Of a DNA stretch of 64,000 bases, positions 18,409 through 38,235 are shown piece after piece. The notes under the pieces were generated by a model. The model worked only from the letters and a program-made list of their open reading frames with translations. It was not told where the DNA came from and did no database searches. Numbering within the stretch: the first letter of the stretch is position 1; every line of letters starts with the position of its first letter. The stretch is from Methylotenera mobilis 13 (GTDB taxonomy: Bacteria > Pseudomonadota > Gammaproteobacteria > Burkholderiales > Methylophilaceae): the NCBI RefSeq assembly GCF_000384255.1, contig NZ_KB913035.1, forward strand, positions 62,001 through 126,000, given 5' to 3'. A program made the position numbers and the translations under genes.

Positions 18409-18704
18409 TGGTTATCACTATTTGCTGAAAAATGCGAAGTTGAAAGCGGCGCATCATCACGAGGGATGCTCTCGATTGGTGGTTAGTGCGCCTAATCTAT
18501 ATCGGTAGAATCACACTAGGTCAATGATGACTCATCGGCAAGGTAAGATAAATCTTCAGCTTGCTTACTACCTTATTCACTGCACTAACTCGTGCATTCT
18601 ATCCGTTTACATTCAAGTATTAAATGTTTTTATACGCGTGTAAGCGCCAATTCTAAACCACAAGCGTTAAAGCAATATGACGTTTGCACTTATAATGGGA
18701 GTCT

Positions 18705-22677: not shown

Positions 22678-24978
22678 TTAATTTAATGACTGTTTACTCC
22701 GCATTTCAAATAAAAACTGCATAAAGTCGTTAAAAGACTTTGGTCTAGATATCAAATATCCCTGACCATAATCACACGCAAAACTATTTAATAAATTTTG
22801 CTGTGCTTCTGTCTCAATCCCTTCAGCAATCACTTTCATACCAAGCTTGTGTGCCATGCTGATGATGGCTTCACAAAGAATGGCATCATAATTATTGGGC
22901 TGAAGATTTTGAGTAAACGACTGATCTATTTTTACATACTCAATATCAAATTTATTTAAGTAAGCAAGCGCAGAGTAACCAGTACCGAAATCATCAATAG
23001 AGAATTGAACACCAGCCTCCCGTAAATCAGAGATTGTATTGACCACATTAACACTCGGTTGCAGCAACAAACCCTCTGTGATTTCAATACAAATAGCACG
23101 GCCAGCGACTCCTTGCTTGGCTAACAACGCTTTCCAAGCCAGTAAACGTTCAGATTTAAGAAATTGATTAGGTGAAACATTCACGCTAATTTGAAACTCT
23201 GTCGAATATTGTGTGTGAATATGTTTGATATCACGAAGCGTTTGATTAAACACCCACGCGCCAATTTCATCGATCAACCCAATTTCTTCAGCTAGAGAAA
23301 TAAACTCTATGGGGCTAATCAACCCTTTCACCGGATGGTTCCACCTGATTAACGCTTCAGCTTTTAATATTTCTTGCGTGCTTAAACTGATAATTGGCTG
23401 ATAATAAAGCTCAAACTGTTGATGCGCGATAGCATTTCTTAAGTCATTTGTCAGTTCCAGTCTTTTAGTAGAGTCAGACTGCATAGATGCTTTGAAAAAC
23501 TGAAACCTGTTTCGACCTAATTTTTTAGCCTCATACATGGCCTGATCAGCATAGCTAATTAACGCCTCAGGATTAGATGTGTCATTTGGATAGATTGTTA
23601 GCCCAATACTTGCAGAAATATAAAAAAGCTCACCACCAATTTGAAACGGTTTTTTAATTTCTGCCAAAATTTTCTGCGATGTTTTTTCCAGTGCCTGTTC
23701 GTTATCAAAATCAGACATGATGACCATAAACTCATCGCCACCGAATCGCGCGACTGTGTCGTAAGACCTCACACAATGTGTGATTCTACTAGCGGCCTCT
23801 TTAATCAACTTATCACCAATAGAGTGCCCAGCAGTGTCATTCACCTGTTTAAAGTTATCTAAATCAATAAACAAAATACCGACCGATGACAAAGATTCAT
23901 CCGCTTTTCCCATCGCCTGCATTAGTCGAGTATCTAACAAGTGGCGGTTCGGTAAATCAGTTAAATAATCATAATTTGCCTGATGCCAAATTGTTTTTTT
24001 GGCTTCAACTCTCTGTCGCCTTAAAGTTTGCTTGAGCTTGAACACTCCAATCAGCCCAACAAGTAAAAACAGACTTGTAACAATAATGATTGGGATTAAC
24101 CATCGACTATAATGGCTATCTGTAATCTGCCATTTCTCAAGTATCTCCTGATTGTTCTTGCCAATCGCCTGCAAGCCCTTATCCAATATTGAAGCGAGTT
24201 CAGGAAGGTCTCCCCTGACAGCCATTGATACATCAGTACTAAAAGGTGTCATCCCCACTTTTTCAACAAAATTTAGCCGGTGCACCACTATATGATAATC
24301 GATAATGATTTGGTTACCGACGTATGCGTCAACTCGCCCTAACCTAAGCTCTTCAAAAGCTTCATCTGCAATATCCACATGTAACAACTTAATGTTTGGG
24401 TAGTTATTCGCGATTTCTTTTGCAATTGGCCCGTTTTTAAATATCGCTACACGCTTATCATCAAGATCGCTCATGGATGTCACTTCGGGGCCATCATTTA
24501 ATTTCTTATTCACATAGATTGCGAAGGGGACATTGAGGAACGGATAAGGTTGTTTCTTAAACTCGGGATGCTTAAGATTAGAGCTCACCACTCCTGAGAT
24601 AACGTCTACAGAAGAGATGCTCATTGATTCTGAGTAATCTATAGGGATAAAACGAATATTAAAAATAGTACCGAGCGCATGTAAATAATCCACACTAATA
24701 CCACGATGCTGATTACTTTCCAATTTAAACTCTATCGGCATCCAGCCATGTTTAACTGCAACACGTACTTCAGGATGCTCTTTAATCCACGCAAGCTCAT
24801 TAGGTGTCAACTGAATATCGCCATACTTGCTATTAACTTTGAGACTGTCTTCGCTTTTAATTCCAACAGGGATAAGCATTACGCTCAATGCGATAAGAAG
24901 TATCAACACCCTGAGTTGCTTAACGCTGAGACGAAATCGCTCAATATAGCGCTGATGAATGAATGACTTTTTTATCAC
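22678..24978 (-). CDS. periplasmic solute-binding sensor with GGDEF and EAL
   Basis: A 766-residue protein: membrane helix (about 20-42), periplasmic solute-binding domain of the SBP_bac_3 type (about 60-285, with RVAIFKNGPIAKEIA and RLGRVDAYVGNQ), a second helix (about 295-315), GGDEF (335-495; ARFGGDEF with RSYD inhibitory site) and EAL (505-755; AEALIRW, EITEG, IDDFGTGYSA, KIDQSF and AEGIET all present). Probably a bifunctional cyclic-di-GMP enzyme gated by a small ligand, amino-acid-like by family. The start is GTG. It follows the DUF3820 gene by nine bases. Confidence 0.93.
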   Translation of the reverse strand: MIKKSFIHQRYIERFRLSVKQLRVLILLIALSVMLIPVGIKSEDSLKVNSKYGDIQLTPNELAWIKEHPEVRVAVKHGWMPIEFKLESNQHRGISVDYLHALGTIFNIRFIPIDYSESMSISSVDVISGVVSSNLKHPEFKKQPYPFLNVPFAIYVNKKLNDGPEVTSMSDLDDKRVAIFKNGPIAKEIANNYPNIKLLHVDIADEAFEELRLGRVDAYVGNQIIIDYHIVVHRLNFVEKVGMTPFSTDVSMAVRGDLPELASILDKGLQAIGKNNQEILEKWQITDSHYSRWLIPIIIVTSLFLLVGLIGVFKLKQTLRRQRVEAKKTIWHQANYDYLTDLPNRHLLDTRLMQAMGKADESLSSVGILFIDLDNFKQVNDTAGHSIGDKLIKEAASRITHCVRSYDTVARFGGDEFMVIMSDFDNEQALEKTSQKILAEIKKPFQIGGELFYISASIGLTIYPNDTSNPEALISYADQAMYEAKKLGRNRFQFFKASMQSDSTKRLELTNDLRNAIAHQQFELYYQPIISLSTQEILKAEALIRWNHPVKGLISPIEFISLAEEIGLIDEIGAWVFNQTLRDIKHIHTQYSTEFQISVNVSPNQFLKSERLLAWKALLAKQGVAGRAICIEITEGLLLQPSVNVVNTISDLREAGVQFSIDDFGTGYSALAYLNKFDIEYVKIDQSFTQNLQPNNYDAILCEAIISMAHKLGMKVIAEGIETEAQQNLLNSFACDYGQGYLISRPKSFNDFMQFLFEMRSKQSLN

Positions 24979-24987
24979 TTTCAGAGA

Positions 24988-25197
24988 CTACTTTCTCAGT
25001 GGGTCTAGCAGACCCGACAAACCATTATGGTCTATTTCCTGCATTAATTGTAATAAACGACCCAAGTCACCAGCAGGAAAACCTTCGCGCGCAAACCAAT
25101 TTAAGTAGTTACCTGGTAAGTCAGCAATTACCCTCCCTTTGTATTTTCCATAAGGCATGACTAATGCAACTAGTCGTTGTAAGTCATCCGGATTCAT
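24988..25197 (-). CDS. DUF3820 family small protein
   Basis: A 69-residue protein with the DUF3820 pattern: MPYGKYKGRVIADLPGNYLNWFAREGFP. The family is widespread and sometimes called a putative quorum-sensing-regulated virulence factor; no function is established. It sits between two GGDEF-EAL genes, 34 bases after one and nine before the next, so it is likely part of the same transcript. Confidence 0.85.
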   Translation of the reverse strand: MNPDDLQRLVALVMPYGKYKGRVIADLPGNYLNWFAREGFPAGDLGRLLQLMQEIDHNGLSGLLDPLRK

Positions 25198-25231
25198 ATT
25201 GATAGCGATTTTATTGCAAAATAATGGGCAG

Positions 25232-27277
25232 TTAACTGTCTTGCAGTTTGCCTCCGCTTAAGAGCAGATCTAACTCTTCTACCGGCAAAGGTTTACTGAA
25301 GAGATACCCCTGGAAGTAATCACAACGTCGCTCACGCAAGAAGTCAGCCTGTTGTGCGTTCTCAACACCTTCCGCGATACTGGTAAAGTTCATTGCCTGC
25401 GCTAAACCAAGTACCGCACTTGCAATCGCATTATCATCATTGTTATGCGGTAGGTTAAGCACGAAAGATTGGCATATTTTAAGTGTATCCACAGGAAAGT
25501 CTTTAAGATAAGCCAGCGATGATGCTCCAGTACCAAAGTCATCAATGGCAAGAGATACGCCCAAAGCTTTAAGCTGCGTGAGTTTATTTACGTCACTGGT
25601 CGCGCTGTCCATGAACATACTTTCGGTGAGTTCCAACTCCAACAGCGCTGGTGGCAGGCCACTTTCTGCCAAAATCTGTGCAACATCATCAACAAGACCC
25701 GGGTGTTTAAACTGTCGCACAGAAAGATTCACTGCTACACGGACTGGTGTGCCTGCGTCATACCAAACACGTCCTTGCTGACATGCTGTCTTTAATACCC
25801 ACTTACCTACCGGAACAATTAAACCACTTTCTTCAAGTAGCGAAATAAACTCCCCTGGTGCCACTAATCCACGTTCTGGGTGCTGCCAGCGTATCAAGGT
25901 TTCAACGGCAGTGACACTGCCTCCTTCAACTGCAATTTGTGGCTGATAATATAAGATGAATTCGTTTCTATCTAAGGCATGCCGCAAATGATTTTCCATC
26001 ACCAGCCGCTCATAAGCGACGGCATCCATCTCAGAAGAATAAAACTGGTAGTTATTACGACCACGTTCTTTTGCGTGGTACATCGCTACATCGGCTTTTT
26101 CCAACAAAACATCTCGATCACCATGGCCCGGGCGATAAAGTGTAATGCCGATACTAGCGCCAACAAACACCTCATGATCACCCACTACAAACGGTAAGCG
26201 CAAGGCATCGATAATCTTTTCTGCCACTATCGCGGCGTCACTTTCTTCTCTCACATCCACCAAAACGACGGCAAACTCATCACCACCCATTCTTGCTACG
26301 GTATCTGACTCTCGAATACAAAGTGCGATACGATTGCCGACCTGCTGCAATAATTTATCGCCGATCCCATGCCCTAAAGTATCATTGATATTTTTAAAGC
26401 GGTCGAGATCGATAAACATCACCGCAATCGTGTCACTGGTTCGATTAGCGTGCGTCTGTGCTTGGTGCAAGCTTTCATTAAACAATAGTCGGTTTGGTAG
26501 CCCTGTCAGCGTGTCATAGTGCGCAAGAAAATGTAGCTGCTGTTGTGTACGCTTGCTCTCACTGATATCACGGACAATGCACAGCACTTGCTCTTCACTA
26601 GCACGAATAAAACGGGATTCGTAGTTAGAAATACCCTGAGGTAAGGTCATCTGATATTCAAAAGAGGCAATGCCTTTACCTACAACGGCTTTTTCCAAAC
26701 AGAGCATGGCCTGATCGGCTACCCCCTGTGGCAAAGCTTCATGTATCGTTTTACCCAGAAAATGCTCAGGCTCTATATGCGTTTGAAAGTCTTTAGCAGG
26801 CTTACACTCTAAAAAACGGCCTTCTAAATCAAGAAATAAAAGTAGATCTGGTACGGCTTCATATAGGGCACGAACTTTGGCTTCACTCTGACGTAATTGC
26901 AGTTCTGCGCGCTTACGTTCAATCGCATAGCGCATCACGCGTAGCAACCAGCGCCCATCTACACTACCTTTTACCAAGTAGTCTTGTGCACCCGCTTGTG
27001 CTAACTCATTCGCCAGCACCTCATCATCATGGCCGGTCATCACCACAATAGGCACATCCGAGACAACCTCATGCAAGCGCCAGAAAGTACCACTGCCTTG
27101 CGAATCTGGTAGTGACAGGTCAAGCAAAATGATGTCAAACTGCACTAAGCAGGCATGCGAAATGGCTTTCCCGAGCGTATCAGCGTGCGTAAGCGTGCAT
27201 GCTGTCAGCACCTCGCGTAGCATGATATCTAATAAACGCGCATCACCTTGATTATCTTCTACCAGTAAGATTTTCAT
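25232..27277 (-). CDS. response regulator REC-PAS-GGDEF-EAL
   Basis: A 681-residue response regulator: REC (1-120, phospho-acceptor Asp in ILLDLSLPD), PAS (125-240), GGDEF (245-410, ARMGGDEF with RESD inhibitory site) and EAL (425-670). The EAL glutamate is kept in an ETL variant, and ELTES, DDFGTG and AEGVEN are present. The usual KIDQSF motif reads KICQSF, with the aspartate replaced by cysteine, which may weaken phosphodiesterase activity. It overlaps the upstream REC-GGDEF-EAL gene by four bases and belongs to the kinase-led operon. Confidence 0.93.
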   Translation of the reverse strand: MKILLVEDNQGDARLLDIMLREVLTACTLTHADTLGKAISHACLVQFDIILLDLSLPDSQGSGTFWRLHEVVSDVPIVVMTGHDDEVLANELAQAGAQDYLVKGSVDGRWLLRVMRYAIERKRAELQLRQSEAKVRALYEAVPDLLLFLDLEGRFLECKPAKDFQTHIEPEHFLGKTIHEALPQGVADQAMLCLEKAVVGKGIASFEYQMTLPQGISNYESRFIRASEEQVLCIVRDISESKRTQQQLHFLAHYDTLTGLPNRLLFNESLHQAQTHANRTSDTIAVMFIDLDRFKNINDTLGHGIGDKLLQQVGNRIALCIRESDTVARMGGDEFAVVLVDVREESDAAIVAEKIIDALRLPFVVGDHEVFVGASIGITLYRPGHGDRDVLLEKADVAMYHAKERGRNNYQFYSSEMDAVAYERLVMENHLRHALDRNEFILYYQPQIAVEGGSVTAVETLIRWQHPERGLVAPGEFISLLEESGLIVPVGKWVLKTACQQGRVWYDAGTPVRVAVNLSVRQFKHPGLVDDVAQILAESGLPPALLELELTESMFMDSATSDVNKLTQLKALGVSLAIDDFGTGASSLAYLKDFPVDTLKICQSFVLNLPHNNDDNAIASAVLGLAQAMNFTSIAEGVENAQQADFLRERRCDYFQGYLFSKPLPVEELDLLLSGGKLQDS

Positions 27278-29004
27278 ACAGAAGCTACCGCGACCGGGCC
27301 AAGATGCTGCCCGCGCTCGAGTAATGCTGTGGCTGCATCAGAAGGTAACGGATGGCAATAGAGATACCCTTGAGCGTCATCATAAGCAAGATTACGCAAA
27401 GTATTCAGTTGTGCTGCCGTTTCTACGCCACCCGCTAAGCCTTTCATGCGGAATACATGCGCCACCTGAATCACCGCACGCGCCATATCGGCACCGTCAG
27501 TTGAGGATGAAGCCGCCTGTGTCAGTCTGCGATCAAGCTTAATGGCGTGGAAAGGAAACTTGCGTAGGTAGTAGAATGAAGCGCGACCATTACCAAAGTT
27601 ATCAAGGGCTAATCTAACGCCTAATTGATTAAGCTTAGTCACTTGTTTAAAAGCACATGCTTCGTCTTCCCATAAGGCATGTTCAGAAATATCAAGCTCC
27701 AAACAATGAGGTGGCAATCCTGTTTCAGCTAACACTGCAGCAACCTGCTCAGCAAAATCGTCCTGCAACAACTGACGTGGTGATAAATTAACTGACAGCA
27801 CTAAAGGCGTGTCAGAATAAGCTAGCCACGCTTGGCCTTGCATGCAAACACTACGTAATACCCACAATCCGACTTCAAGAATGAGCGGGGAGCTTTCCAA
27901 CACATTCATAAACGCTCCTGGCAACAGTAAACCACGTGTCGGGTGCTGCCAACGCAACAATGATTCCATGCCATTAATTTGGCTGGTCTTCACATCCACT
28001 TGAGGTTGGTAGTTAATGACAAACTCGCCCTGGTTAACAGCAGTTGCTAACTCCCCTAGCAATACTCGATCTTCAGTAGCCCTGTCATTCATATTCGCCG
28101 AGAAAAAACGGTAATTACTTTGCAAGCCGGTTTCTGCCTTGGCCTGATACATGGCAACATCTGCATTCCGTACTAAAGACTCTATGTGATCTGTATCAGT
28201 AGGATAAATGCTTATTCCGACACTCACGCCAATATCCAATGAACGCCCATCAATCAAGAAAGGTGGTCTCACGGCATCTATAATTTTACTGGCCGCCGTT
28301 GCTGCATCTTCTTCATCATAGATATCAGTTAATATCAGGGTAAATTCATCTCCCCCAATTCTGGCGACACAATCCGTTTCACGCATACATTCACGCAAGC
28401 GCAGAGCGACGCCCTGTAGTAGCAAATCACCCACATAATGACCTAATGTGTCATTAATGGACTTAAACCCATTCAAATCTAATAACAATAAGGCTAGCTT
28501 GGTTTCGTGCCTGCGTGCTAAGGCAATTGAATTTTTAAGCGTATCGTAAAAATGCTTACGATTGGATAAGCCAGTCAGACTGTCATAATGAGCAAGGTGA
28601 TTTAACCGTTCTTCAGTGCGCTTGCGCTCAATTGCATAGCGTAAAGAGCGAGTCAGTTGGTGTGCGTCAACATGACCTTTGACCAGAAAATCTTGAGCAC
28701 CCTGCTGTACGGATCGGACTGCCAACCCCTCATCAGCAATGCTACTGAGTACAACAATCGGTATCCCTGGCGCATTTGCATGTATTTTAAGTAGCGTATT
28801 AAGGCCACTGCTATCTGGTAGCTCTATATCGAGCAAAATGGCCGTAATGTCGTGGCTATCTAAGATGGCCAGTGCTGTTTCTTGGCGATCCGCCGTGACT
28901 AAAGTAAAACTTTCACTTTGGTCAGCAGCCAATAGCTCTCGTACCAAGCGGATATCACCTGGATTGTCTTCAACCAGTAAAATGGTCAGTGAAGTGCCAC
29001 TCAT
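27274..29004 (-). CDS. response regulator REC-GGDEF with degenerate EAL
   Basis: A 576-residue response regulator: REC (5-125, Asp in ILLDIELPD), GGDEF (135-300, intact ARIGGDEF with RETD inhibitory site) and an EAL-fold domain (310-560). In the EAL domain the motif DDFGTG reads DNFGNG and AEGVET reads AGGVET, removing a metal-binding aspartate and a catalytic glutamate; EAL itself is ESL. The phosphodiesterase is probably dead, so the protein should act as a phosphorylation-controlled cyclase, perhaps with the EAL domain as a regulatory or binding module. It overlaps the next gene by four bases. Confidence 0.92.
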   Translation of the reverse strand: MSGTSLTILLVEDNPGDIRLVRELLAADQSESFTLVTADRQETALAILDSHDITAILLDIELPDSSGLNTLLKIHANAPGIPIVVLSSIADEGLAVRSVQQGAQDFLVKGHVDAHQLTRSLRYAIERKRTEERLNHLAHYDSLTGLSNRKHFYDTLKNSIALARRHETKLALLLLDLNGFKSINDTLGHYVGDLLLQGVALRLRECMRETDCVARIGGDEFTLILTDIYDEEDAATAASKIIDAVRPPFLIDGRSLDIGVSVGISIYPTDTDHIESLVRNADVAMYQAKAETGLQSNYRFFSANMNDRATEDRVLLGELATAVNQGEFVINYQPQVDVKTSQINGMESLLRWQHPTRGLLLPGAFMNVLESSPLILEVGLWVLRSVCMQGQAWLAYSDTPLVLSVNLSPRQLLQDDFAEQVAAVLAETGLPPHCLELDISEHALWEDEACAFKQVTKLNQLGVRLALDNFGNGRASFYYLRKFPFHAIKLDRRLTQAASSSTDGADMARAVIQVAHVFRMKGLAGGVETAAQLNTLRNLAYDDAQGYLYCHPLPSDAATALLERGQHLGPVAVASV

Positions 29005-29022
29005 ACAGCCCCCATAACGCAG

Positions 29023-29475
29023 TTAATCTTTGACGTCTGATGGTAATTTAACGATGGTCAGCCAGAAGCTCTCTATCGCTTGAATTACTTTGATAAACTG
29101 ATCTAAATCTACAGGTTTGCTTACGTAGCAATTGGCATGTAAATCGTAAGTGCGCAGGATATCTTTTTCTGCTTCGGAAGAAGTGACGATCACCACCGGA
29201 ATGCGCTTAAGTTGAGGGTCTGATTTAATTTCAGCCAGCACTTCACGCCCATCTTTTTTAGGTAAATTAAGGTCTAATAGCACCACATCAGGAGTAGGCG
29301 CATTCACGTACTGCCCTTCTTTACGTAAGAATGCTAATGCCTCCACACCGTCTTTAACCACATTCAGGTTATTGCTTATCTTACTTTCGCGCAATGCTTC
29401 CTGCGTTAATCTAACGTCGCCAGGGTTATCCTCAGCCAATAAAAACTCAACCTGCCTGCTCACTTCACTCTCCAT
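29023..29475 (-). CDS. single-domain response regulator (Rcp1-like)
   Basis: A 150-residue CheY-like protein with only a REC domain. It shows the acidic pair LLAEDNPGD, phospho-acceptor in VVLLDLNLPKKDG, the threonine switch in VVIVTSS and the lysine in YVSKPVDL. The extended form with the loop after helix 2 resembles the Rcp1 partners of phytochrome-type kinases. I start it at ATG 29475, preceded by AAAGGA; a GTG-type start upstream would lie deeper in the kinase gene. It overlaps the kinase 3' end by 11 bases and is its likely partner. Confidence 0.92.
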   Translation of the reverse strand: MESEVSRQVEFLLAEDNPGDVRLTQEALRESKISNNLNVVKDGVEALAFLRKEGQYVNAPTPDVVLLDLNLPKKDGREVLAEIKSDPQLKRIPVVIVTSSEAEKDILRTYDLHANCYVSKPVDLDQFIKVIQAIESFWLTIVKLPSDVKD

Positions 29476-31084
29476 GATGTTTCCTTTCCCCATGATGTAT
29501 AGGTAAAGTAAAATAAAAAACTGCTCCCTTGCCGACTTCTGATTCTATCCAAATCTTTCCGCCGTGTCGCTCAACGATTTTCTTGCATACAGAGAGGCCA
29601 ATACCCGTTCCCGGATATTCATGCTTGCCATGCAAGCGTTGAAAAATAATGAAAATACGCTCAAAGAAATCTGGCGCGATACCGATGCCGTTATCACGTA
29701 CTGAGAATAACCATTCACCCTCTTTTTTCTCTGCACCTACGTGGATAATTGGTGAGCTGTCTCCACGGAACTTGATACCGTTGCCGATTAAATTCTGAAA
29801 CAACTGAGTCAGCTGCGAAACATCAGCCTCCAGTCTAGGCATCGGATCACGAGTCACGACTGCGCCTGACTCCTCTATTGCTAGACGTAGATTAGACTCA
29901 GCCCGCTCTAATGCAACGGAAGTCTCGCACATCTCCATCCGCTTACCATGCGTACCAATACGCGACATGGTCAATAGATCAATAATCAGTGCCTGCATCC
30001 GCGTTGCGCCATCTACCGCATAGCCAATAAACTCATTCGCATCCTGATCCAGCTTATCTTTATAGCGCCTTGCCAACAATTGTGTATAGCTAGCCACCAT
30101 GCGTAGCGGCTCTTGCAAATCATGTGATGCCACATAAGCAAACTGCTCTAATTCACGATTAGAATTAGCAAGCTCTTCCGTACGCTCTGCCAACGCCTCT
30201 TGTGTCTGCTTAAAGGCTGTAATATCTGAAAACTCGGCAATCACTTGTGTTACTTTTCCAGCAGAGTCTTTAACGGCATTCATATTCATCCATGCCAGAT
30301 AATCATCACCTTGCTGGTTCTTTAGCCAGATTTCCCCTTGCCACTGGCCACCAGCAGTCACCGTGGTCCAAAGGTCTTGATATAGTGTTGGCTCCAATTC
30401 TGCAAGTAAACCTTGCATCGGTTTGCCAATTAAAGCGTCTGAAGCATACCCCGTAATCTTTGCCACCGATTTATTCACGTGAAGCATATGGCCTTTCACG
30501 TCAGCAATAATCACCGCCTCTAAATTACTCTCAAACACCTGTGCCAATAAGCGCAACATTTCATGGTCGGCATGGAAATATGCAGAGAGTGAAAGCTCAG
30601 AGTCAAACATAGCGATTTTATTAATCGCTTTTGAATAGGCGAGAAAACGTTCAGCATCGTTATCCACCAAACGCATCACTTCTGGAAGCACCCAAGATAA
30701 ATATTTGTTATACGCACCTAGATACCAGCGTGGCTCTAACCCTATTTGCTGATAGATGACACCCACGCGGAGACGGCTCTTGATGTAGTCAGGGCCGTAA
30801 TCACCCGCAAATACTTGTTTAAAATACTCCCGCTGTTTTTGTTTAAGCTGTGATAATTGCTCAGGATTACTGAGGCTAGCAACTATTTGCGGATAGGAGT
30901 CTAAGTGCTGATATAGCAGATCGGCAAAAGTATCTTCAAGTGGCGCAAGTAAAGGCCCCAACTCTTTGAGCAGTCTGGAATCCTGCTCGCTGAACTCAAG
31001 AAAATCCTTACGCGACTGAACCTCATCGGCGCTCGGGGTCATGCTGTCGATCAAAGCATCAACGGTAGGCTGGTGCAATAACAT
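29465..31084 (-). CDS. protoglobin-PAS histidine kinase lacking the proximal haem histidine
   Basis: A 539-residue soluble sensor kinase. An N-terminal globin-coupled-sensor (protoglobin) domain (about 25-160) has the hallmark RVGVIYQQIGLEPRWYLGAY; the position normally held by the haem-binding histidine (H-x-x-I-G-L) is tyrosine 111. PAS follows (180-290), then the dimerisation domain with acceptor histidine H321 in VASHDLQEPLR, and the ATPase domain with DNGIGIAP and GTGIGLS. The chosen ATG has GGGAG five bases upstream; a GTG four codons earlier lies inside that site. It is the first gene after the riboswitch and leads the signalling operon. Confidence 0.93.
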   Translation of the reverse strand: MLLHQPTVDALIDSMTPSADEVQSRKDFLEFSEQDSRLLKELGPLLAPLEDTFADLLYQHLDSYPQIVASLSNPEQLSQLKQKQREYFKQVFAGDYGPDYIKSRLRVGVIYQQIGLEPRWYLGAYNKYLSWVLPEVMRLVDNDAERFLAYSKAINKIAMFDSELSLSAYFHADHEMLRLLAQVFESNLEAVIIADVKGHMLHVNKSVAKITGYASDALIGKPMQGLLAELEPTLYQDLWTTVTAGGQWQGEIWLKNQQGDDYLAWMNMNAVKDSAGKVTQVIAEFSDITAFKQTQEALAERTEELANSNRELEQFAYVASHDLQEPLRMVASYTQLLARRYKDKLDQDANEFIGYAVDGATRMQALIIDLLTMSRIGTHGKRMEMCETSVALERAESNLRLAIEESGAVVTRDPMPRLEADVSQLTQLFQNLIGNGIKFRGDSSPIIHVGAEKKEGEWLFSVRDNGIGIAPDFFERIFIIFQRLHGKHEYPGTGIGLSVCKKIVERHGGKIWIESEVGKGAVFYFTLPIHHGERKHHGE

Positions 31085-31089
31085 GTTAT

Positions 31090-31096
31090 CTCCCAC
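31090..31096 (-). promoter_or_regulatory. ribosome-binding site of the kinase, able to pair with an anti-SD
   Basis: GTGGGAG precedes the ATG at 31084. The segment CTCCCAT (minus strand, 31145-31151) can pair with it over seven bases, and the same ACTCCC can instead pair with GGGAGT inside the riboswitch core (31185-31200). This gives two mutually exclusive structures. Confidence 0.45.
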
Positions 31097-31178
31097 AAAA
31101 GTACTAATCTCGCTCCTAAATCACTAAGGGAAACTGGCGATAGAATGGGAGTTACTGAAAGAAATACGGGGGATCCGC

Positions 31179-31271
31179 ACATCTGGCACTCCCGCTATCC
31201 TAGAACTGACGCCCCTTAGACCGGTGATTTTGCGCCCTCGCTTTTCAGCAGAGTTTGCCTTTTACAAATGT
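31179..31271 (-). promoter_or_regulatory. cyclic-di-GMP-I (GEMM-I) riboswitch
   Basis: Read on the minus strand, this 93-base element has the GEMM-I landmarks in order: closing helix ACATTT (31266-31271) with AGATGT (31179-31184); GGCAAAC; a hairpin CTCTGCT-GAAA-AGCGAG with a GNRA loop; GGGCGCAAA; the tetraloop-receptor-like CCGGTCTAAG; and GATAGCGGGAGTGCC. The base before CAAAC is G, as in cyclic-di-GMP binders rather than cGAMP-type GEMM-Ib (which carry A). It lies 95 bases upstream of the histidine kinase start in an operon full of cyclic-di-GMP enzymes. Identification is by motif recall, not a covariance search. Confidence 0.82.
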
Positions 31272-31282
31272 AATGCTGCATG

Positions 31283-31311
31283 AGTATCAGTACATTTATA
31301 AAATCAGTCAA
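31283..31311 (-). promoter_or_regulatory. promoter of the riboswitch-kinase transcript
   Basis: On the minus strand TTGACT (31306-31311) and GATACT (31283-31288) are separated by exactly 17 bases. The expected start of transcription, about 31276, is about five bases before the first helix of the riboswitch. Confidence 0.55.
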
Positions 31312-31566
31312 CCACCCATTCCAGTGAATGGCTATCATGCGAATTTGATGCCAACATCACAATTGACCGATGTAAACCCACCTGACTTGATGCTTGCCAT
31401 CACGCCAGATGATATGATGTATCCGTATCAACACTTAAGATGACATAACAAAGATAGGTGTGACTTTTGCCAGATAACGGGTACCGAATGATGTGGTACT
31501 AAAATCAGAAGTGTCCAGCACCCAGTGTTAATCACCGGCGGCGTCACAATCCATCAGGAAAAATCC
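31312..31566. other. intergene between the kinase operon and the pseudokinase gene
   Basis: About 255 bases without a credible gene. It has a short dyad CCATTC/GAATGG (31316-31331). A 62-codon open frame from a TTG at 31255 runs through it but starts inside the riboswitch and has no ribosome-binding site. Confidence 0.5.
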
Positions 31567-33894
31567 ATGCTCAACAAAATAGACCGCTTTGAAATGCTAA
31601 GGAAGCTTGATGAAAGCAAGCAAAATGCTGTTTATTTAGCGCGTGATCCGCATATGGGTCGTGAGGTGATGATTAAACTTCTGTTACAAAACGACCTGAG
31701 CTTAGACACCCTGCTACCGCAGGTACGTATTGTTGGCAAATTACAACATAAGCACATTGTTACTTTGTTAGATGCAGGTGAACATGATGGCGCTCCTTAT
31801 CTAGTCTATGCATTTGTCAACGGCATCACTTTATCCCAGCAACTAAAATCATCACTACCATTCGCAGGGACTCAAGCAGCACAAATGATAGCGGACGTGC
31901 TTGAAGCAGTAAGCTATGCGCACGCCCAAGGTGTCATGCCTTTAGACTTGAACCCAGAAAATTTTATGCTTGCCGAAGATCAAACACCTATGCTGTTGGG
32001 CATCGGCATGGCTAATCTTGGAACAAAAAACCATCAGGCTCAGTTGGCTACTCCATACACAGCGCCCGAGCTAATCTCTGGTGACAAAGCCACCGCATCT
32101 GCAGACATTTTTTCACTAGGCGTAATGTTGAACGAAATGGTCACAGGGTTACCATTTATCGAAAAAGCAAAAAAACCAACAGCGCTCCCAACGACTGGTG
32201 TTACCCCTAAAAGCATACAGATTCATCTTGATGAAGCACTAGAAAGCATTATTCTTAAAGCAACGAGTAAGGCGCCAGAAGATAGATATGCTAACGCCAA
32301 CACCATGCGACAAGCGCTGCAAGACTACCTAACACCAGTCCATGGTGAGCATAAGCCAGTGGATGCACACAGCACGATGGATTTCTTGCTGCGTCGCATG
32401 CGAAGCAAAAGCGATTTTCCAGCATTGTCCCATACCATTAGCGAAATCAACCGATTGGCAGATGACGACTCAGCCAGTAACAACGCACTAGCACAGAGCA
32501 TTTTGAATGACTTTGCGCTGACTAATAAATTATTAAAACTGGTGAACACAGTCACTTATGGTCAATTTGGCGGCCATATTAATACCATCTCTAAAGCCGT
32601 GGTGATTTTAGGTTTCGAAACGGTACGCAATGTGGCAATGTCATTGATATTACTTGATTTTTTGCAAAACAAAGCACAAGCATCTCAACTTAAAGACGAC
32701 GTACTAGCGTCATTCTTTGCGGGTATTGTGGCAGCACAATTAGCGCCATCCAGCCATGTTAAAAATGCAGAAGAAGCCATTATTTGCTCAATGTTCCGCA
32801 ACTTAGGCAAGCTACTCGCGAGCTTTTACTTTTTTGAAGAAAGCCAGCAAGTTTCGCGCTTAGTTGATCAGGGCGACAGCGAAGACAAAGCTTCGGTAAA
32901 AGTATTGGGCATGAGCTATAACGAGCTGGGAATCGGCGTTGCCAAAAGCTGGAACTTTCCACCACGATTAATCGCGGGCATGCGCAAATTAAGTGGTGAT
33001 AGAGTCATCAAACCGAATGGTGAGCTAGAAAGTTTGTCCCTGACAGTTAACCTGGCTAATGAATTATGTACGATTGCCAGTAACGGTAATATTGCTGACA
33101 AATCCAAAGCGCTTAAGCAACTAGCAACTCGTTACGAAAATGCGCTTAGCGTTTCAGAGCAACAGCTACGTCAATCAATGGAAAGCGCTTTAGATGAGCT
33201 CGCAGCACGCGCTAGAATCGTCGGCATCAACACCTCGCAAAGTATGCTAATGACGCGAGTTAACGCTTGGATAGGCGCTAGAGCAGAGGTATCACACAAG
33301 TCTGCTGAAGAGACTGAACTGGCATCATTAGGCATCAGCCTTGAAAAGCCTGATGAAAAAAGTAGCGAAACGGCAAAACTTGATTCTGAGTCTATCCTCA
33401 CCGAGGGTATTCAAGAGGTCACCAACACCCTGATTGAAGAACATCAACTTAACGATATTATGCAGATGGTGCTTGAAACCATGCACCGCGGCATGGGCTT
33501 TAACCGCACTCTGCTATTCGTAAGAGATATCAAAAACAATCAAATGGCAGCGCGCTTTGGGTTTGGTCATGACATTGATGTTGCACTTAAGAAGTTTAAG
33601 TTTAGTTTAGATTTTGCGCCAGATGTGTTCCACCTTGCTATTAGCAAAGGCGCGGACTTAATGTTGGAAGATATTACGGCAGACAACGTGACTGCTAAAA
33701 TTCCACAGTGGTACAGACAGACCGTTTCATCACAAAGCTTTTTACTATTGCCGATTATGGTCAACAACAAAGCATTGGGCATGTTTTACGCAGATATGGA
33801 GCAACCTAATAGCATGCAGGTTTCAGCTAGGCAGCTTTCCCTGTTACGTACTTTGAGAAACCAATCTGTACTTGCCATCAAACAAAAAGGCTAA
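31567..33894 (+). CDS. pseudokinase-HDOD-GAF signalling protein
   Basis: A 775-residue three-part protein. An N-terminal Ser/Thr-kinase fold (about 5-260) keeps the ATP-site lysine K37 and the APE-like YTAPEL. It has lost the glycine loop, has PLDLNPEN where HRDLKPEN is expected (lysine to asparagine), and has GIG in place of DFG, so catalysis is unlikely. An HDOD domain follows (about 270-480; SILNDFALTNKLLKLVNTV and AVVILGFETVRNVA) and a C-terminal GAF domain (about 620-770). AGGA lies eight bases before the chosen ATG; earlier in-frame starts lack one. It is divergent from the riboswitch operon. HDOD proteins often act in signalling and motility regulation. Confidence 0.85.
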   Translation: MLNKIDRFEMLRKLDESKQNAVYLARDPHMGREVMIKLLLQNDLSLDTLLPQVRIVGKLQHKHIVTLLDAGEHDGAPYLVYAFVNGITLSQQLKSSLPFAGTQAAQMIADVLEAVSYAHAQGVMPLDLNPENFMLAEDQTPMLLGIGMANLGTKNHQAQLATPYTAPELISGDKATASADIFSLGVMLNEMVTGLPFIEKAKKPTALPTTGVTPKSIQIHLDEALESIILKATSKAPEDRYANANTMRQALQDYLTPVHGEHKPVDAHSTMDFLLRRMRSKSDFPALSHTISEINRLADDDSASNNALAQSILNDFALTNKLLKLVNTVTYGQFGGHINTISKAVVILGFETVRNVAMSLILLDFLQNKAQASQLKDDVLASFFAGIVAAQLAPSSHVKNAEEAIICSMFRNLGKLLASFYFFEESQQVSRLVDQGDSEDKASVKVLGMSYNELGIGVAKSWNFPPRLIAGMRKLSGDRVIKPNGELESLSLTVNLANELCTIASNGNIADKSKALKQLATRYENALSVSEQQLRQSMESALDELAARARIVGINTSQSMLMTRVNAWIGARAEVSHKSAEETELASLGISLEKPDEKSSETAKLDSESILTEGIQEVTNTLIEEHQLNDIMQMVLETMHRGMGFNRTLLFVRDIKNNQMAARFGFGHDIDVALKKFKFSLDFAPDVFHLAISKGADLMLEDITADNVTAKIPQWYRQTVSSQSFLLLPIMVNNKALGMFYADMEQPNSMQVSARQLSLLRTLRNQSVLAIKQKG

Positions 33895-34042
33895 GTTTAA
33901 GCCTCATCACTTTACTGTAGCGGCATGCAAATCACCTAAACTAGCCTTAAAACTATGACTGATTGACCTGAGTCAATGTCGGCGCCTGCGTTTACCGCAA
34001 TCATAAGCAATATTTCTAACCCCAATATTTCTTGGTCAAATC

Positions 34043-35218
34043 ATGATGAACTTCGATATTGTCATTGTTGGCGCGGGTCCAGCTGGCCTATGTTTTGCAC
34101 AAGCTGTTGCAGGATGCGGCTTACGGATTGCTATACTTGAGCGCCAGCCAGAATCTATGTTAGCCAACCCAGCTTTTGATGGGCGTGAAATTGCACTGAC
34201 ACACCATTCTGCACAACTAATGCAATCCCTTGGCTTGTTGGAGCGCATTGATCAGCATGCCATCTCACCATTACGCGATGCGAGAGTGCTCAATGGGCCA
34301 TCGCTTTATGCCATGAATATCGAACACGGCGACAGCAAAAAAGCATCATTAGGCTATTTGATCGCTAATCACCTTATCCGTCAATCTGCTTATGAAGCGG
34401 TAAAATCATCACCAGATATCACGCTTCTCACCGAGTCAGACATGACAGGCGTTAGCACAGATAATGAGGGCGCCTACATCAGCCTTGCTAGTGGAGAAAA
34501 AGTAAAATCACAACTTTTGGTCGCAGCAGACAGCCGATTTTCTGAAACAAGACGAGCGATGGGCATCCCCGCCAGCATGCATGACTTTGGCAAAACCATG
34601 ATGGTCTGCGTCATGGAGCATAGTATCCCGCATCATCATGTGGCTTGGGAATGGTTTGACTACGGCCAAACCTTAGCACTATTACCGATGAATGGTATGC
34701 GCTCCTCTGTTGTCATCACCCTTCCCGCTAACGATATTCAACGGCTAATGTCGTTAAGCGAACCAGCGTTTAATGAGGATATCGCCATGCGCTTTAAGCA
34801 TCGACTAGGTGCAATGCAATTAGCATCCACCCGACATGCTTACCCACTGGTAACAGCCTATGCCAGCCAACTTGTTGCAAAGCGCTTTGCACTGGTTGGC
34901 GATGCTGCCGTGGGCATGCACCCAGTGACCGCACACGGATTTAATTTTGGGCTATCTGGGATTGATGTACTTGCCCAAGAAATCAAAACTGCAAAGTCAC
35001 GGGGTAGCAATATCGCTGCCACGGCGCTGCTCGAACGTTACGAAAGAAAACATCGCATCAAAACACGTCCTCTGTTTATTGCTACACATGCTATTGCAAA
35101 ACTGTATGGAAACGACTCGATGCCTGCACGCCTCATTAGATCAGCATCGCTACGCATCGGTAATCGTGTCTCTCCCTTTAAACGTGCGGTGGCACATATG
35201 CTGACCGAAGCGCGTTAA
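34043..35218 (+). CDS. UbiH/UbiF-family FAD-dependent hydroxylase
   Basis: A 391-residue aromatic-ring hydroxylase of the UbiH/Coq6 family. It has the N-terminal FAD motif IVIVGAGPAGLCFAQAVA, the DG-type motif LLVAADSRFSETRRAMGI (about 150-170) and the second FAD motif FALVGDAAVGMHPVTAHGFNFGLSG (abridged as ALVGDAA and HPVTAHGFN). Members hydroxylate intermediates of ubiquinone biosynthesis. The divergence of the DG motif and the isolated position, away from other ubi genes, leave open which position is hydroxylated or whether it acts outside ubiquinone synthesis. ATG at 34043 or 34046 can serve as start. Confidence 0.88.
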   Translation: MMNFDIVIVGAGPAGLCFAQAVAGCGLRIAILERQPESMLANPAFDGREIALTHHSAQLMQSLGLLERIDQHAISPLRDARVLNGPSLYAMNIEHGDSKKASLGYLIANHLIRQSAYEAVKSSPDITLLTESDMTGVSTDNEGAYISLASGEKVKSQLLVAADSRFSETRRAMGIPASMHDFGKTMMVCVMEHSIPHHHVAWEWFDYGQTLALLPMNGMRSSVVITLPANDIQRLMSLSEPAFNEDIAMRFKHRLGAMQLASTRHAYPLVTAYASQLVAKRFALVGDAAVGMHPVTAHGFNFGLSGIDVLAQEIKTAKSRGSNIAATALLERYERKHRIKTRPLFIATHAIAKLYGNDSMPARLIRSASLRIGNRVSPFKRAVAHMLTEAR

Positions 35219-35264
35219 TGTCCTGTCAAATACATCTGTGATTTAACTAATAGATTGTAAAGTG

Positions 35265-35279
35265 AACCTGCATCAGGTT
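35265..35279. promoter_or_regulatory. dyad upstream of the isochorismatase-like gene
   Basis: AACCTG and CAGGTT are a perfect inverted repeat across CAT, 62 bases before the start codon. Candidate operator of an unknown repressor. Confidence 0.3.
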
Positions 35280-35340
35280 TAATTGACTATATATAAGTGC
35301 TCACAACACGACCAAGTCAATTAATTGCAAAGGAAACAGG

Positions 35341-35940
35341 ATGGCGACAGCGTCTAAAACATTACGCGAAATTTCGGGCTTAGGACTATCGGCTACATCA
35401 CTGGCATCTTCTGCCCTGGTGATGATTGATTGCCAAAATACCTATCGAAAAGGGCTAATGCAATTAACGAATGTGGAACCAGCAATCATTGAAGCAAAAA
35501 AACTACTTACACGCGCAAGAGTGCTCAACATTCCAATCATTCACATTCAACATGATGCTGGCGTGGGTTCGCCGTATGACATTACCGCCGAAATAGGCGC
35601 AATCTGTGATGAAGTGGCCCCTATCAATGGTGAAACTGTTATCGTTAAAAACTACCCTAACGCGTTTATCCACACAACACTTGATCAACATTTAAAAACA
35701 CTAGGCATCAACAACATTGTGTTAGCAGGATTTATGACACACATGTGCATCAACTCAACCGCCCATGGTGGTTTTAATTTAGGCTATACAGTCACCGTAG
35801 TTGCAAGTGCCACCGCCACACGGCCACTAGAAGCCGCTAACGGAAAAGTATTGACTGCTGAAGAGGTGCATGAAGCCGCCATTGCCTCAACGCGTGATTT
35901 ATATGCGGCTATTGTAGATAATGTAGATGCACTGAGTTGA
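35341..35940 (+). CDS. isochorismatase-family cysteine hydrolase
   Basis: A 199-residue member of the isochorismatase-like hydrolases. The catalytic triad is visible: Asp in VMIDCQNTY, Lys in VIVKNYPNAF and Cys in GFMTHMCINSTAHGG. The family includes nicotinamidases, N-carbamoylsarcosine amidases and many uncharacterised amidases, so the substrate is open. AAAGGAAACAGG directly precedes the ATG. It is single, followed by a strong dyad and a convergent PAS-GGDEF-EAL gene. Confidence 0.9.
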   Translation: MATASKTLREISGLGLSATSLASSALVMIDCQNTYRKGLMQLTNVEPAIIEAKKLLTRARVLNIPIIHIQHDAGVGSPYDITAEIGAICDEVAPINGETVIVKNYPNAFIHTTLDQHLKTLGINNIVLAGFMTHMCINSTAHGGFNLGYTVTVVASATATRPLEAANGKVLTAEEVHEAAIASTRDLYAAIVDNVDALS

Positions 35941-35965
35941 TTCAACCAACACTTAGCTAAATCTC

Positions 35966-35999
35966 CACAGCTTACTAAGCACTTAATTGGTAAGCTGTG
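35966..35999. terminator. hairpin between convergent genes
   Basis: CACAGCTTAC and GTAAGCTGTG form a perfect 10-bp stem across 14 bases between two convergent stop codons. No clear T run on either side, so termination efficiency is doubtful. Confidence 0.45.
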
Positions 36000-36015
36000 A
36001 TTCCGTGCTTCACGA

Positions 36016-38235
36016 TTAAACCAGCTTAGTGATATCCACAACCGATCCATAATGCTTCATGAGCGCATCAAACTGCTCAATAGGTAATGGCTTACTAAAT
36101 AAATACCCTTGATATGCCATACAGTCATGCTGCTTCAAGAAGGCCAATTGCGCTTCGGTTTCAACACCTTCAGCAATCACGTTTAAGCTAAAGTTCTGTG
36201 CCATATCAATAATGGTTTTTACCATCACTGCATCACTTTTATCGGTGGTGATATCTCGCACAAAACTTTGATCAATCTTGATCTGATCCAGTGGCAAACG
36301 TTTTAAATAAGAGAGTGAAGAAAACCCAGTGCCAAAATCATCTAAAGACAACGTAACCCCTACTTCTTGTCTTAATAGATTCTTTTTTGCAATCACATCA
36401 GCAATATCATCCAGCGCGACACTTTCTGTCAGCTCTAACTTAAGTCGTGATGGATCTATCCCATGTTTACGAATAGCCGATACGACCTGCTCAACAAAGT
36501 TTGCTTGCTTAAACTGCTGCGCGCTAATATTAACAGCTAACACCAAATTGCCCATTTTCTCATGCGCACTCCACACAGCAATCTGCCGGCAGGCCTCGTC
36601 TAGCACCCAATCACCAATATTTAGAATCAATCCACTTTCTTCTGCCACTGGAATAAAATGTGCTGGTGAAACCATGCCTCTTTGCGGGTGTATCCAACGA
36701 ATCAGTGCCTCTGCACCTATTGGCTGATTTTCGTGGTCAACTTGTAGTTGGTAGTGCAACTCAAATTGTTCGGTTTCTAGTGCATGATGTAAATCAGACT
36801 CTAGCAAAGCACGCACTTCAACTAGCTTCTGCATTCGGGGGTCAAAAAAGCGGACTCTATTTCGGCCGCCATCTTTTGCCTGATACATTGCCATATCGGC
36901 ACGTTTGATTAATTCCTCTACACTTTTATCCTGTCCGCAAAAAACCGACACTCCAATGCTTGATGAGCTATGTATATTCAATTGGTTGATTTGATAAGGC
37001 TCGGCAAGTGCTGCACGTATGTTTTCAGCAATTTTTGCCGCCATACGGGAAGCGTCTTCTAAATTTGCACCTAATCTTTCTACCAGTACAACAAACTCAT
37101 CACCACCCTGACGGGCAACAGTATCCACCTCCCGCACACAGGCGTTGATTCTTTTTGCCACCTCAATCAGCAACAAATCACCATCACTATGGCCTTGCGT
37201 ATCGTTAATGACTTTAAACTTATCTAAATCAAGAAACAACAAAGCCCCATATTGCATACTACGCGCAGAGGCTGCCAAAGCAATGTGCAGCCTGTCCAGT
37301 AAGTGTCTTCTATTAAATAAGCCAGTTAACGCATCTTTATAAGCTAGGTTCTGAATTTCCTCTTCTGCCCGTTTGCGGTCACTAATATCACGACCCACCG
37401 ATTGAATTTCTGTCAGTTGTCCATGCTCGTCAAAAATCCCTCGGTTACTAAACTGCATCCAGTGAACCTGACCACTTGCAGACAACACTCTATTTTCAAT
37501 TATCACCACAGGGTTAGCCTGAGACATCGTGGATAATTCAGCAATCACACGCTGCACATCTTCAGGGTAAACAACGGGTGTCCATGTGGAGCCAATCATC
37601 TCCTCTTCGGTTTTACCAAAGAACCGACAATAAACATCATTCACAAAAATATAGGTGCCATCAGCACGCAATCTCGAGATGACTTCCGTTTGATCTTGCA
37701 CCACGGAACGAAAGCGCTCTTCACTTTGCCTCAGCACGGCTTCTGCCTCTTTAATGGCGCTGATATCAGTCACTAGAACAAAGAATCCATGCACCTCGCC
37801 ATCTCTAATATCTGGAATGTAATGCGCTAATGAGTGACGCGAGCGGCTACTATCTGCATTAGGGATAATCCGCTCAAACTCCTGAAACTCGCCCCTTAAG
37901 GCACCTTCAATATAGGGCAGGTTTAAGCGATATAGATCTTCACCCAGTAGCTCCCAAATATATTTACCAACAATCTGACTAATATCTACACCAAACCATA
38001 GTTCATAAGCCTTATTTACAAAGCGATTCTTCAGGTCTTTGTCCCAATACCCTACCATCGAAGGTAAATAATCGAGTACAGTTTGAATCACTGAACTTGA
38101 TAACATTGAGTCAGCGATCTGATCAGAGGCTTTAGAAAGTTTTGATAATTCTTCAGGCAAAATAAGATTGTCGGTAACACTAGCTTTTACATCTTCTGAA
38201 TTAGCGAATACTGGCGGAATTGATGGAGATTTCAT
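36016..38235 (-). CDS. PAS-PAS-GGDEF-EAL protein
   Basis: A 739-residue soluble protein with two PAS/PAC modules (about 50-165 and 170-290), GGDEF (300-460, ARQGGDEF with an REVD inhibitory site) and EAL (470-725). The EAL catalytic set is intact: AEALIRW, ELTESVA, LDDFGTGFSS, KIDQSF and AEGVET. Both synthesis and breakdown of cyclic-di-GMP are possible. The first 45 residues are polar and of unknown role. No membrane segment. Single gene, the sixth GGDEF protein in the window. Confidence 0.94.
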   Translation of the reverse strand: MKSPSIPPVFANSEDVKASVTDNLILPEELSKLSKASDQIADSMLSSSVIQTVLDYLPSMVGYWDKDLKNRFVNKAYELWFGVDISQIVGKYIWELLGEDLYRLNLPYIEGALRGEFQEFERIIPNADSSRSRHSLAHYIPDIRDGEVHGFFVLVTDISAIKEAEAVLRQSEERFRSVVQDQTEVISRLRADGTYIFVNDVYCRFFGKTEEEMIGSTWTPVVYPEDVQRVIAELSTMSQANPVVIIENRVLSASGQVHWMQFSNRGIFDEHGQLTEIQSVGRDISDRKRAEEEIQNLAYKDALTGLFNRRHLLDRLHIALAASARSMQYGALLFLDLDKFKVINDTQGHSDGDLLLIEVAKRINACVREVDTVARQGGDEFVVLVERLGANLEDASRMAAKIAENIRAALAEPYQINQLNIHSSSSIGVSVFCGQDKSVEELIKRADMAMYQAKDGGRNRVRFFDPRMQKLVEVRALLESDLHHALETEQFELHYQLQVDHENQPIGAEALIRWIHPQRGMVSPAHFIPVAEESGLILNIGDWVLDEACRQIAVWSAHEKMGNLVLAVNISAQQFKQANFVEQVVSAIRKHGIDPSRLKLELTESVALDDIADVIAKKNLLRQEVGVTLSLDDFGTGFSSLSYLKRLPLDQIKIDQSFVRDITTDKSDAVMVKTIIDMAQNFSLNVIAEGVETEAQLAFLKQHDCMAYQGYLFSKPLPIEQFDALMKHYGSVVDITKLV

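Follow-up and report, generated by a model that had tools for sequence, protein, structure and literature searches.

Does the c-di-GMP riboswitch at this locus act on the turnover of its own ligand, and in which direction? Feedback on the ligand's own pathway is typical of riboswitches. Among c-di-GMP riboswitches such feedback is rare, according to the part of a review consulted here (PMC6366702). In the 64-kb stretch of Methylotenera DNA that we analyzed (the window), a spacing of 97 nt separates the aptamer from a downstream operon that encodes, by Pfam, a globin-type histidine kinase, a single receiver, an RR-GGDEF-EAL protein, and an RR-PAS-GGDEF-EAL protein (Table 1). We lean toward the view that a true c-di-GMP-I riboswitch occupies the 5' leader of this four-gene operon for c-di-GMP signaling and exerts negative feedback, most probably by switching translation OFF. 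The aptamer match, the gene order, and the conservation of both are the computed part of this model. The switch itself is of an ordinary, known kind; the operon that it adjoins is less usual.

Table 1. Features of the riboswitch leader and of the operon behind it (window coordinates)
Feature	Coordinates	Strand	Basis and remarks
Sigma-70-like promoter, TTGACT-17-GATACT	31283..31311	minus	Consensus match and conservation; 13 nt upstream of the aptamer match
c-di-GMP-I (GEMM-I) aptamer including P1	31179..31271	minus	RF01051 match and structure counts, 10 leaders
Aptamer 3' strand, GATAGCGGGAGT	31188..31199	minus	Predicted alternative pairing with the anti-SD block
Hairpin, AGA.GUGCGG/CCGUAU.UCU	31160..31184	minus	96.7% of cells paired, 10 leaders
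Anti-SD block, CUCCCAUUCUAUC	31139..31151	minus	Alignment, pair counts, folding
Shine-Dalgarno (SD), GUGGGAG	31090..31096	minus	Overlap with GTG, the mechanical start of the ORF as listed
Globin-coupled histidine kinase, Protoglobin-PAS-HisKA-HATPase_c	29465..31084	minus	Pfam; likely start ATG 31084, 539 aa
Single-domain response regulator	29023..29493	minus	PF00072; frame overlaps the kinase gene
RR-GGDEF-EAL	27274..29004	minus	Pfam; GGDEF with RxxD; EAL has DNFG and AGGVE versus the usual DDFG and AEGVE
RR-PAS-GGDEF-EAL	25232..27277	minus	Pfam; GGDEF with RxxD; EAL motifs mostly kept (KIC for KID); 4-nt overlap with the previous gene

A first-pass annotation of this DNA had assigned the element to the GEMM-I class from a series of landmarks, all of which are present on the minus strand in the order that it gave. 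The covariance-model search that it had called for, run with cmscan (Infernal, Rfam 15) on the whole window, bore out the assignment: RF01051 matched positions 31269 to 31182 of the minus strand with 69.8 bits (E = 1.2e-11), far over the gathering score of 35, and the match covered the full length of the model (positions 1 to 87 of 87), confirming that this stretch is a c-di-GMP-I (GEMM-I) aptamer. It was the one c-di-GMP-I match among three Rfam matches above the gathering score in the window. A Methylophilales-1 RNA (RF03011) was also recorded at 18590 to 18481 (minus strand, 109.1 bits), in agreement with the genus assignment. The closing helix ACATTT/AGATGT, likewise proposed beforehand, is P1, in which 31271 to 31266 pair with 31184 to 31179 (letters checked); the Rfam model leaves it unpaired, and our coordinates include it. 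In an alignment of homologous leaders (n = 10), 96.7% of the P1 cells were paired and one pair showed a two-sided change, and the bound-state structure as a whole, which is mostly aptamer, showed 10 cells with two-sided changes, compared to a mean of 3.7 after shuffling. RF01051 matched only once in the 2,803,787 bases (2.80 Mb, one contig) of this genome, with 150 of the 203 first-look candidates scored, and the same genome gave 40 GGDEF matches.

We then considered the identity of the ligand. In the part of PMC9262584 consulted, G11 of Cd1, equivalent to G20 of Vc2, is the selectivity base and is described as a factor rather than a hard filter. By our own mapping, this equivalence places the selectivity base at 31259 (Rfam position 11), where GGCAAAC begins, and the window as well as each of the 10 operon leaders carries G there. 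The first-pass annotation had taken the G before CAAAC as the mark of c-di-GMP binders; its c-di-GMP call stands, while the base concerned is the first G of GGCAAAC and not the one directly before CAAAC. Retention of G at the selectivity position favors c-di-GMP over cGAMP as the ligand type. Although the leniency of this base as a filter leaves some room for an aptamer preferring cGAMP, such a preference is hard to reconcile with a G at that place in every leader or with an operon encoding GGDEF-EAL proteins, and on account of the selectivity base we consider cGAMP a very improbable ligand.

The downstream genes had been described as a kinase-GGDEF-EAL operon, in agreement with the Pfam assignments and with frames that overlap or nearly abut (29465/29493, 29023/29004, and 27274/27277). 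The kinase ORF as listed starts at GTG 31096, which is a mechanical start, and both its globin sensor and its kinase core are present (PF11563, PF00512, and PF02518). Both GGDEF domains keep GGDEF together with RxxD, which we take to be the product-inhibition site. The EAL domain encoded by the third gene had DNFG in seven of seven relatives and AGGVE in six of seven, neither AEGVE nor AGGVE being detected in contig L037. Both motifs bear on EAL catalysis, and with these changes the domain is probably inactive as a phosphodiesterase, which would favor synthesis for the third gene. Other genes of this kind lie nearby. About 250 nt past the operon is an SBP_bac_3-GGDEF-EAL gene (24978 to 22678, minus strand; SBP_bac_3 below the Pfam cut-off); L031 and L032 likewise have a relative of this gene after the operon. 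With a further PAS-GGDEF-EAL gene (38235 to 36019, minus strand) there are four GGDEF-EAL genes within 22678 to 38235. The divergent gene (31525 to 33894, plus strand) encodes a protein kinase with HDOD and a weak GAF match.

We next asked how far the arrangement of riboswitch and operon is conserved. A search of 187 Methylophilaceae genomes with RF01051, under the stricter filters applied above 40 genomes, returned matches in 39 genomes (69 rows, 68 of them over the cut-off). The kinase was present at E <= 1e-60 in 12 of the 187 genomes, and in 10 of these 12 the riboswitch was located directly upstream, nine belonging to Methylotenera and one (G177) to another genus; the operon aptamer of G177 matched best to c-di-GMP-I-GGC (RF03167). 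No Rfam riboswitch match at E <= 1 was obtained in the stretches examined around the kinases of G051, G049, and contig L037 (L037 has the start coordinate of the G049 contig and is probably identical with it). The four genes occur in unchanged order in six Methylotenera contigs with long flanks (L031 to L036; for the receiver of L032, residues 1 to 89 alone aligned) and also in L037, and six kinase homologs from Methylotenera are 69 to 95% identical to the window kinase. In the wider order, a kinase match at E <= 1e-80 was returned by 17 of 399 genomes, this one included. Apart from it, five gave full-length matches (L161 to L165), near which no c-di-GMP aptamer was found at E <= 0.5 in the stretches examined. 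Given that none was found near the kinases of G051, G049, and L161 to L165, the riboswitch would have joined this operon within the Methylophilaceae, or some lines would have lost it.

The leader itself contains a candidate platform for control of translation. The linkers between aptamer and start codon drift in the alignment of the 10 leaders, except for the hairpin and, in most leaders, the CUCCCA block. Within the anti-SD block, CUCCCA can pair with the SD, while A plus CUCCC, together with CUAUC, can pair with the aptamer 3' strand; the SD core reads GGGAG in nine leaders and GGGGG in the tenth. The outer three pairs of the hairpin (AGA/UCU) use the 3' strand of P1, so the hairpin competes with P1. 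Upstream, a box pair similar to that of the window lies 13 to 14 nt from the aptamer in 8 of the 10 leaders, window included, whereas G143 has TTGAC at -43 with no passing -10 and G177 has TTGAC at -51. Scanning of the region for promoters gave two promoter-like sites, compared to 1.4 expected by shuffling.

In the OFF model that we favor, the anti-SD block would, without ligand, pair with the aptamer 3' strand during transcription, and the downstream hairpin would capture the P1 strand, leaving the SD open on emergence. Once c-di-GMP is bound, both aptamer and P1 would hold, the anti-SD would be free, and the SD would be closed, resulting in less kinase, with the overlapping frames carrying repression along the operon. 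High c-di-GMP would in this way damp a phosphorelay with GGDEF- and EAL-bearing outputs, and the net change in c-di-GMP would depend on whether synthesis or breakdown dominates.

The same hairpin could alternatively be read as an intrinsic terminator (31184 to 31160) that P1 weakens, so that the same aptamer would be an ON or transcriptional switch in which c-di-GMP lets transcription continue. Sharing of the outer three pairs with P1 and pairing in 96.7% of the cells would fit this reading, as would a terminator-like site at 31180 to 31164, the hairpin core, given that 31000 to 31530 contains two such sites versus 0.3 expected, the other being upstream of the aptamer. However, the stem core is short, and the tract after the stem is UUCUUUCA here but CUCUACAU, CUCUAUAC, CUCUACAA, or CUCUCACA in five near relatives. 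Since the U-run is not conserved, we ranked an intrinsic terminator lower as the main platform and regard control of this type as unlikely, though not negligibly so.

We then examined the pairings on which the translational OFF model depends. The SD:anti-SD helix (CUCCCA/GUGGGAG) was paired in 91.7% of the cells over the 10 leaders, with one-sided changes only and no two-sided change. For the competing pairing to the aptamer strand GAUAGCGGGAGU, the values were 91.7% for ACUCCC and 78% for CUAUC. The apo structure had a two-sided count that 92 of 500 shuffles reached, and sliding it by -2 still paired 75.7% of the cells. Whole-leader stability was dropped as evidence, the folding energy being ordinary (z = -0.64). 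When folding of the growing transcript was followed, the aptamer strand was paired with the block with a probability of 0.63 to 1.00 in all 10 leaders at ten nucleotides past the anti-SD, and just before the SD the alternative helix still stood at 0.79 to 1.00 in nine of them and at 0.08 in G143. The final SD without ligand was mostly open in four leaders (G114, G147, G146, and G143; mean unpaired, 0.58 to 0.75) and mostly closed in six, that of the window among them. At equilibrium, the full leader of the window without ligand had a closed SD in 1,994 of 2,000 samples; this sampling classed together all pairings of the aptamer strand to sequence further downstream, and its rows for G109 and G110 thus mix structures. 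The OFF model thus needs kinetic control in this leader.

Duplex scoring placed the two best partners in an overlap of 9 nt in 3 of the 10 leaders and of 0 to 3 nt in the other 7, and it was weak in the window, where 56 of 500 shuffles reached the SD duplex, 76 the aptamer-strand duplex, and 10 both with the overlap. We therefore added a folding control with shuffled linkers. With the aptamer locked (set apart), the SD was closed at 0.89 to 1.00 in all 10 leaders; shuffled linkers gave means of 0.81 to 0.90, indicating that closure alone is not special. For the window leader, none of 150 shuffles reached the pairing between aptamer strand and linker, two reached the number of nucleotides serving both partners, and four jointly reached 90% of all three values. 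Shared nucleotides were strong also in G109, G145, G110, G118, and G146 (reached by 0, 0, 7, 8, and 11 of 150 shuffles, respectively), and weak in G114, G147, G143, and G177 (1.15, 0.19, 0.10, and 0.02 nucleotides, reached by 30, 65, 71, and 87 of 150); in these last four, two of which are near relatives, the SD pairs mainly with other parts of the linker. Joint hits among the 150 shuffles numbered 1 each in G109 and G145, 9 to 14 in five others, 34 in G143, and 16 in G177. Taken together, the folding calculations support a kinetic translational OFF reading in 6 of the 10 leaders, including the window, and not in the other 4, and covariation of the SD helix does not add to this support.

A real aptamer that has ceased to control the operon, or one working via RNA decay or processing instead of SD access, would also be in line with a window leader that is closed at equilibrium without ligand and with shuffled linkers that close the SD too. 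The part of PMC6366702 consulted, moreover, counts as functional no more than 11 of the 16 c-di-GMP riboswitches of C. difficile. Such a loss of switching would sit poorly with the retention of the aptamer, P1, the hairpin, and, in most leaders, CUCCCA within an otherwise drifting linker, or with a promoter spacing kept in 8 of 10 leaders, and we consider it rather improbable.

We next turned to the signal that the kinase may perceive. Among solved structures, its globin domain matched HemAT, the globin 2w31, Tlr1989, a stressosome protein, and a globin-coupled histidine kinase, the last being PDB 5ohe (so titled; E = 5.6e-4), which we take to be AfGcHK. The reference for our alignment was the His within IASIHLRIGL of HemAT, presumably the heme ligand; the window kinase has Tyr at this position, and a proximal His was thus not found. 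Tyr was present in six genomes, namely, G000 (this genome), G109, G110, G114, G145, and G147, and His in G118, G146, G143, and G177, all riboswitch bearing, while the kinases without riboswitch had Gln (G051) and His (G049). Because of the Tyr, gas or O2 sensing by the window kinase should not be assumed, and its globin sensor may carry a Tyr-ligated heme or may be heme-free, either way. The His/Tyr difference among closely similar kinases constitutes a natural experiment on the signal of the globin sensor. The first-pass annotation was silent on the globin coupling, the changed heme-ligand position, the direction of the switch, and the departures in the third-gene EAL motifs.

To place this operon among the genes that lie behind aptamers in the family, we took as the target the longest open frame of at least 100 codons starting at most 500 nt away, which 67 of the 69 matches had, grouped the targets into single-linkage BLAST clusters, and scanned 20 representatives for domains. 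The 69 matches precede this kinase operon (10), DUF3391-HD genes (7), which we take to be HD-GYP-like, GGDEF/EAL genes (6), EAL-HDOD genes (3), which cover the EAL model only in part and are possibly degenerate, and MotA genes (3); the remaining targets include beta-helix, S8 peptidase, two-partner secretion, and autotransporter genes. Turnover-type genes or operons (kinase operon, HD-GYP-like, GGDEF/EAL, and EAL-HDOD) thus account for 26 of the 69, a count in which related genomes are not independent and one genome contributes 13 rows. That many c-di-GMP-I matches occur in G177 (L005, L111 to L115, L118, L120, L122, L128 to L130, and L142), preceding this kinase operon and HD-GYP-like, EAL-HDOD, MotA-like, MCP, S8 peptidase-like, and other genes. 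The motA-like genes of three genomes (L020, L110, and L128; domain scan of L020 alone) have the aptamer 92 to 112 nt upstream. As a tentative idea, possible rather than probable, the c-di-GMP-I riboswitch of the Methylophilaceae might be a homeostat on c-di-GMP turnover, and in Methylotenera it would brake a two-component system with a globin sensor that is shifting from His to Tyr, one operon integrating an RNA-sensed messenger and a protein-sensed signal.

The open-access literature searched, covered mostly by titles and the beginnings of abstracts, yielded no c-di-GMP riboswitch linked with Methylotenera or with a globin-coupled kinase. The part of PMC12530212 consulted reports seven c-di-GMP riboswitches in another methylotroph, Methylophaga strain GP59, beside PEP-CTERM, TonB-receptor, PqqA, and similar genes, and mentions Methylotenera in another connection only, not with riboswitches; no passage on riboswitches or GGDEF was found in the available part of PMC3728764. 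The kind of switch is already known, and what is added here is its solitary status in the genome, its conserved arrangement, an OFF mechanism with its weak points, and a changed heme-ligand position. As a conserved counter-example to the rarity of feedback on the ligand pathway, and as the sole aptamer found amid 40 GGDEF matches, it offers a simple place for testing direct RNA feedback on c-di-GMP turnover.

The window aptamer shares with RF01051 riboswitches the full-length model match and the selectivity G, and we found no difference in the aptamer. The CmrRST operon of Clostridioides difficile is likewise a signal transduction target, behind a switch that we take to be class II. The operon under c-di-GMP riboswitch control there comprises a kinase together with two response regulators; c-di-GMP promotes its expression, and the abstract names no GGDEF/EAL output (PMC8844915), whereas for the operon studied here we propose an OFF switch, and its outputs are GGDEF-EAL proteins. 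The logic proposed here is that of Vc2 of Vibrio cholerae, a translational OFF switch dependent on P1 according to the part of PMC9262584 consulted, although the platform for the window leader was derived from sequence alone. Vc2 homologues lie upstream of tfoX orthologues, as far as the consulted part of PMC6366702 goes, in contrast to the two-component c-di-GMP operon found here. Finally, AfGcHK of Anaeromyxobacter, which is O2 activated according to the part of PMC8697598 consulted, joins a globin sensor to a histidine kinase as the window kinase does, but the latter differs in having a PAS domain between globin and kinase and Tyr at the heme-ligand position.
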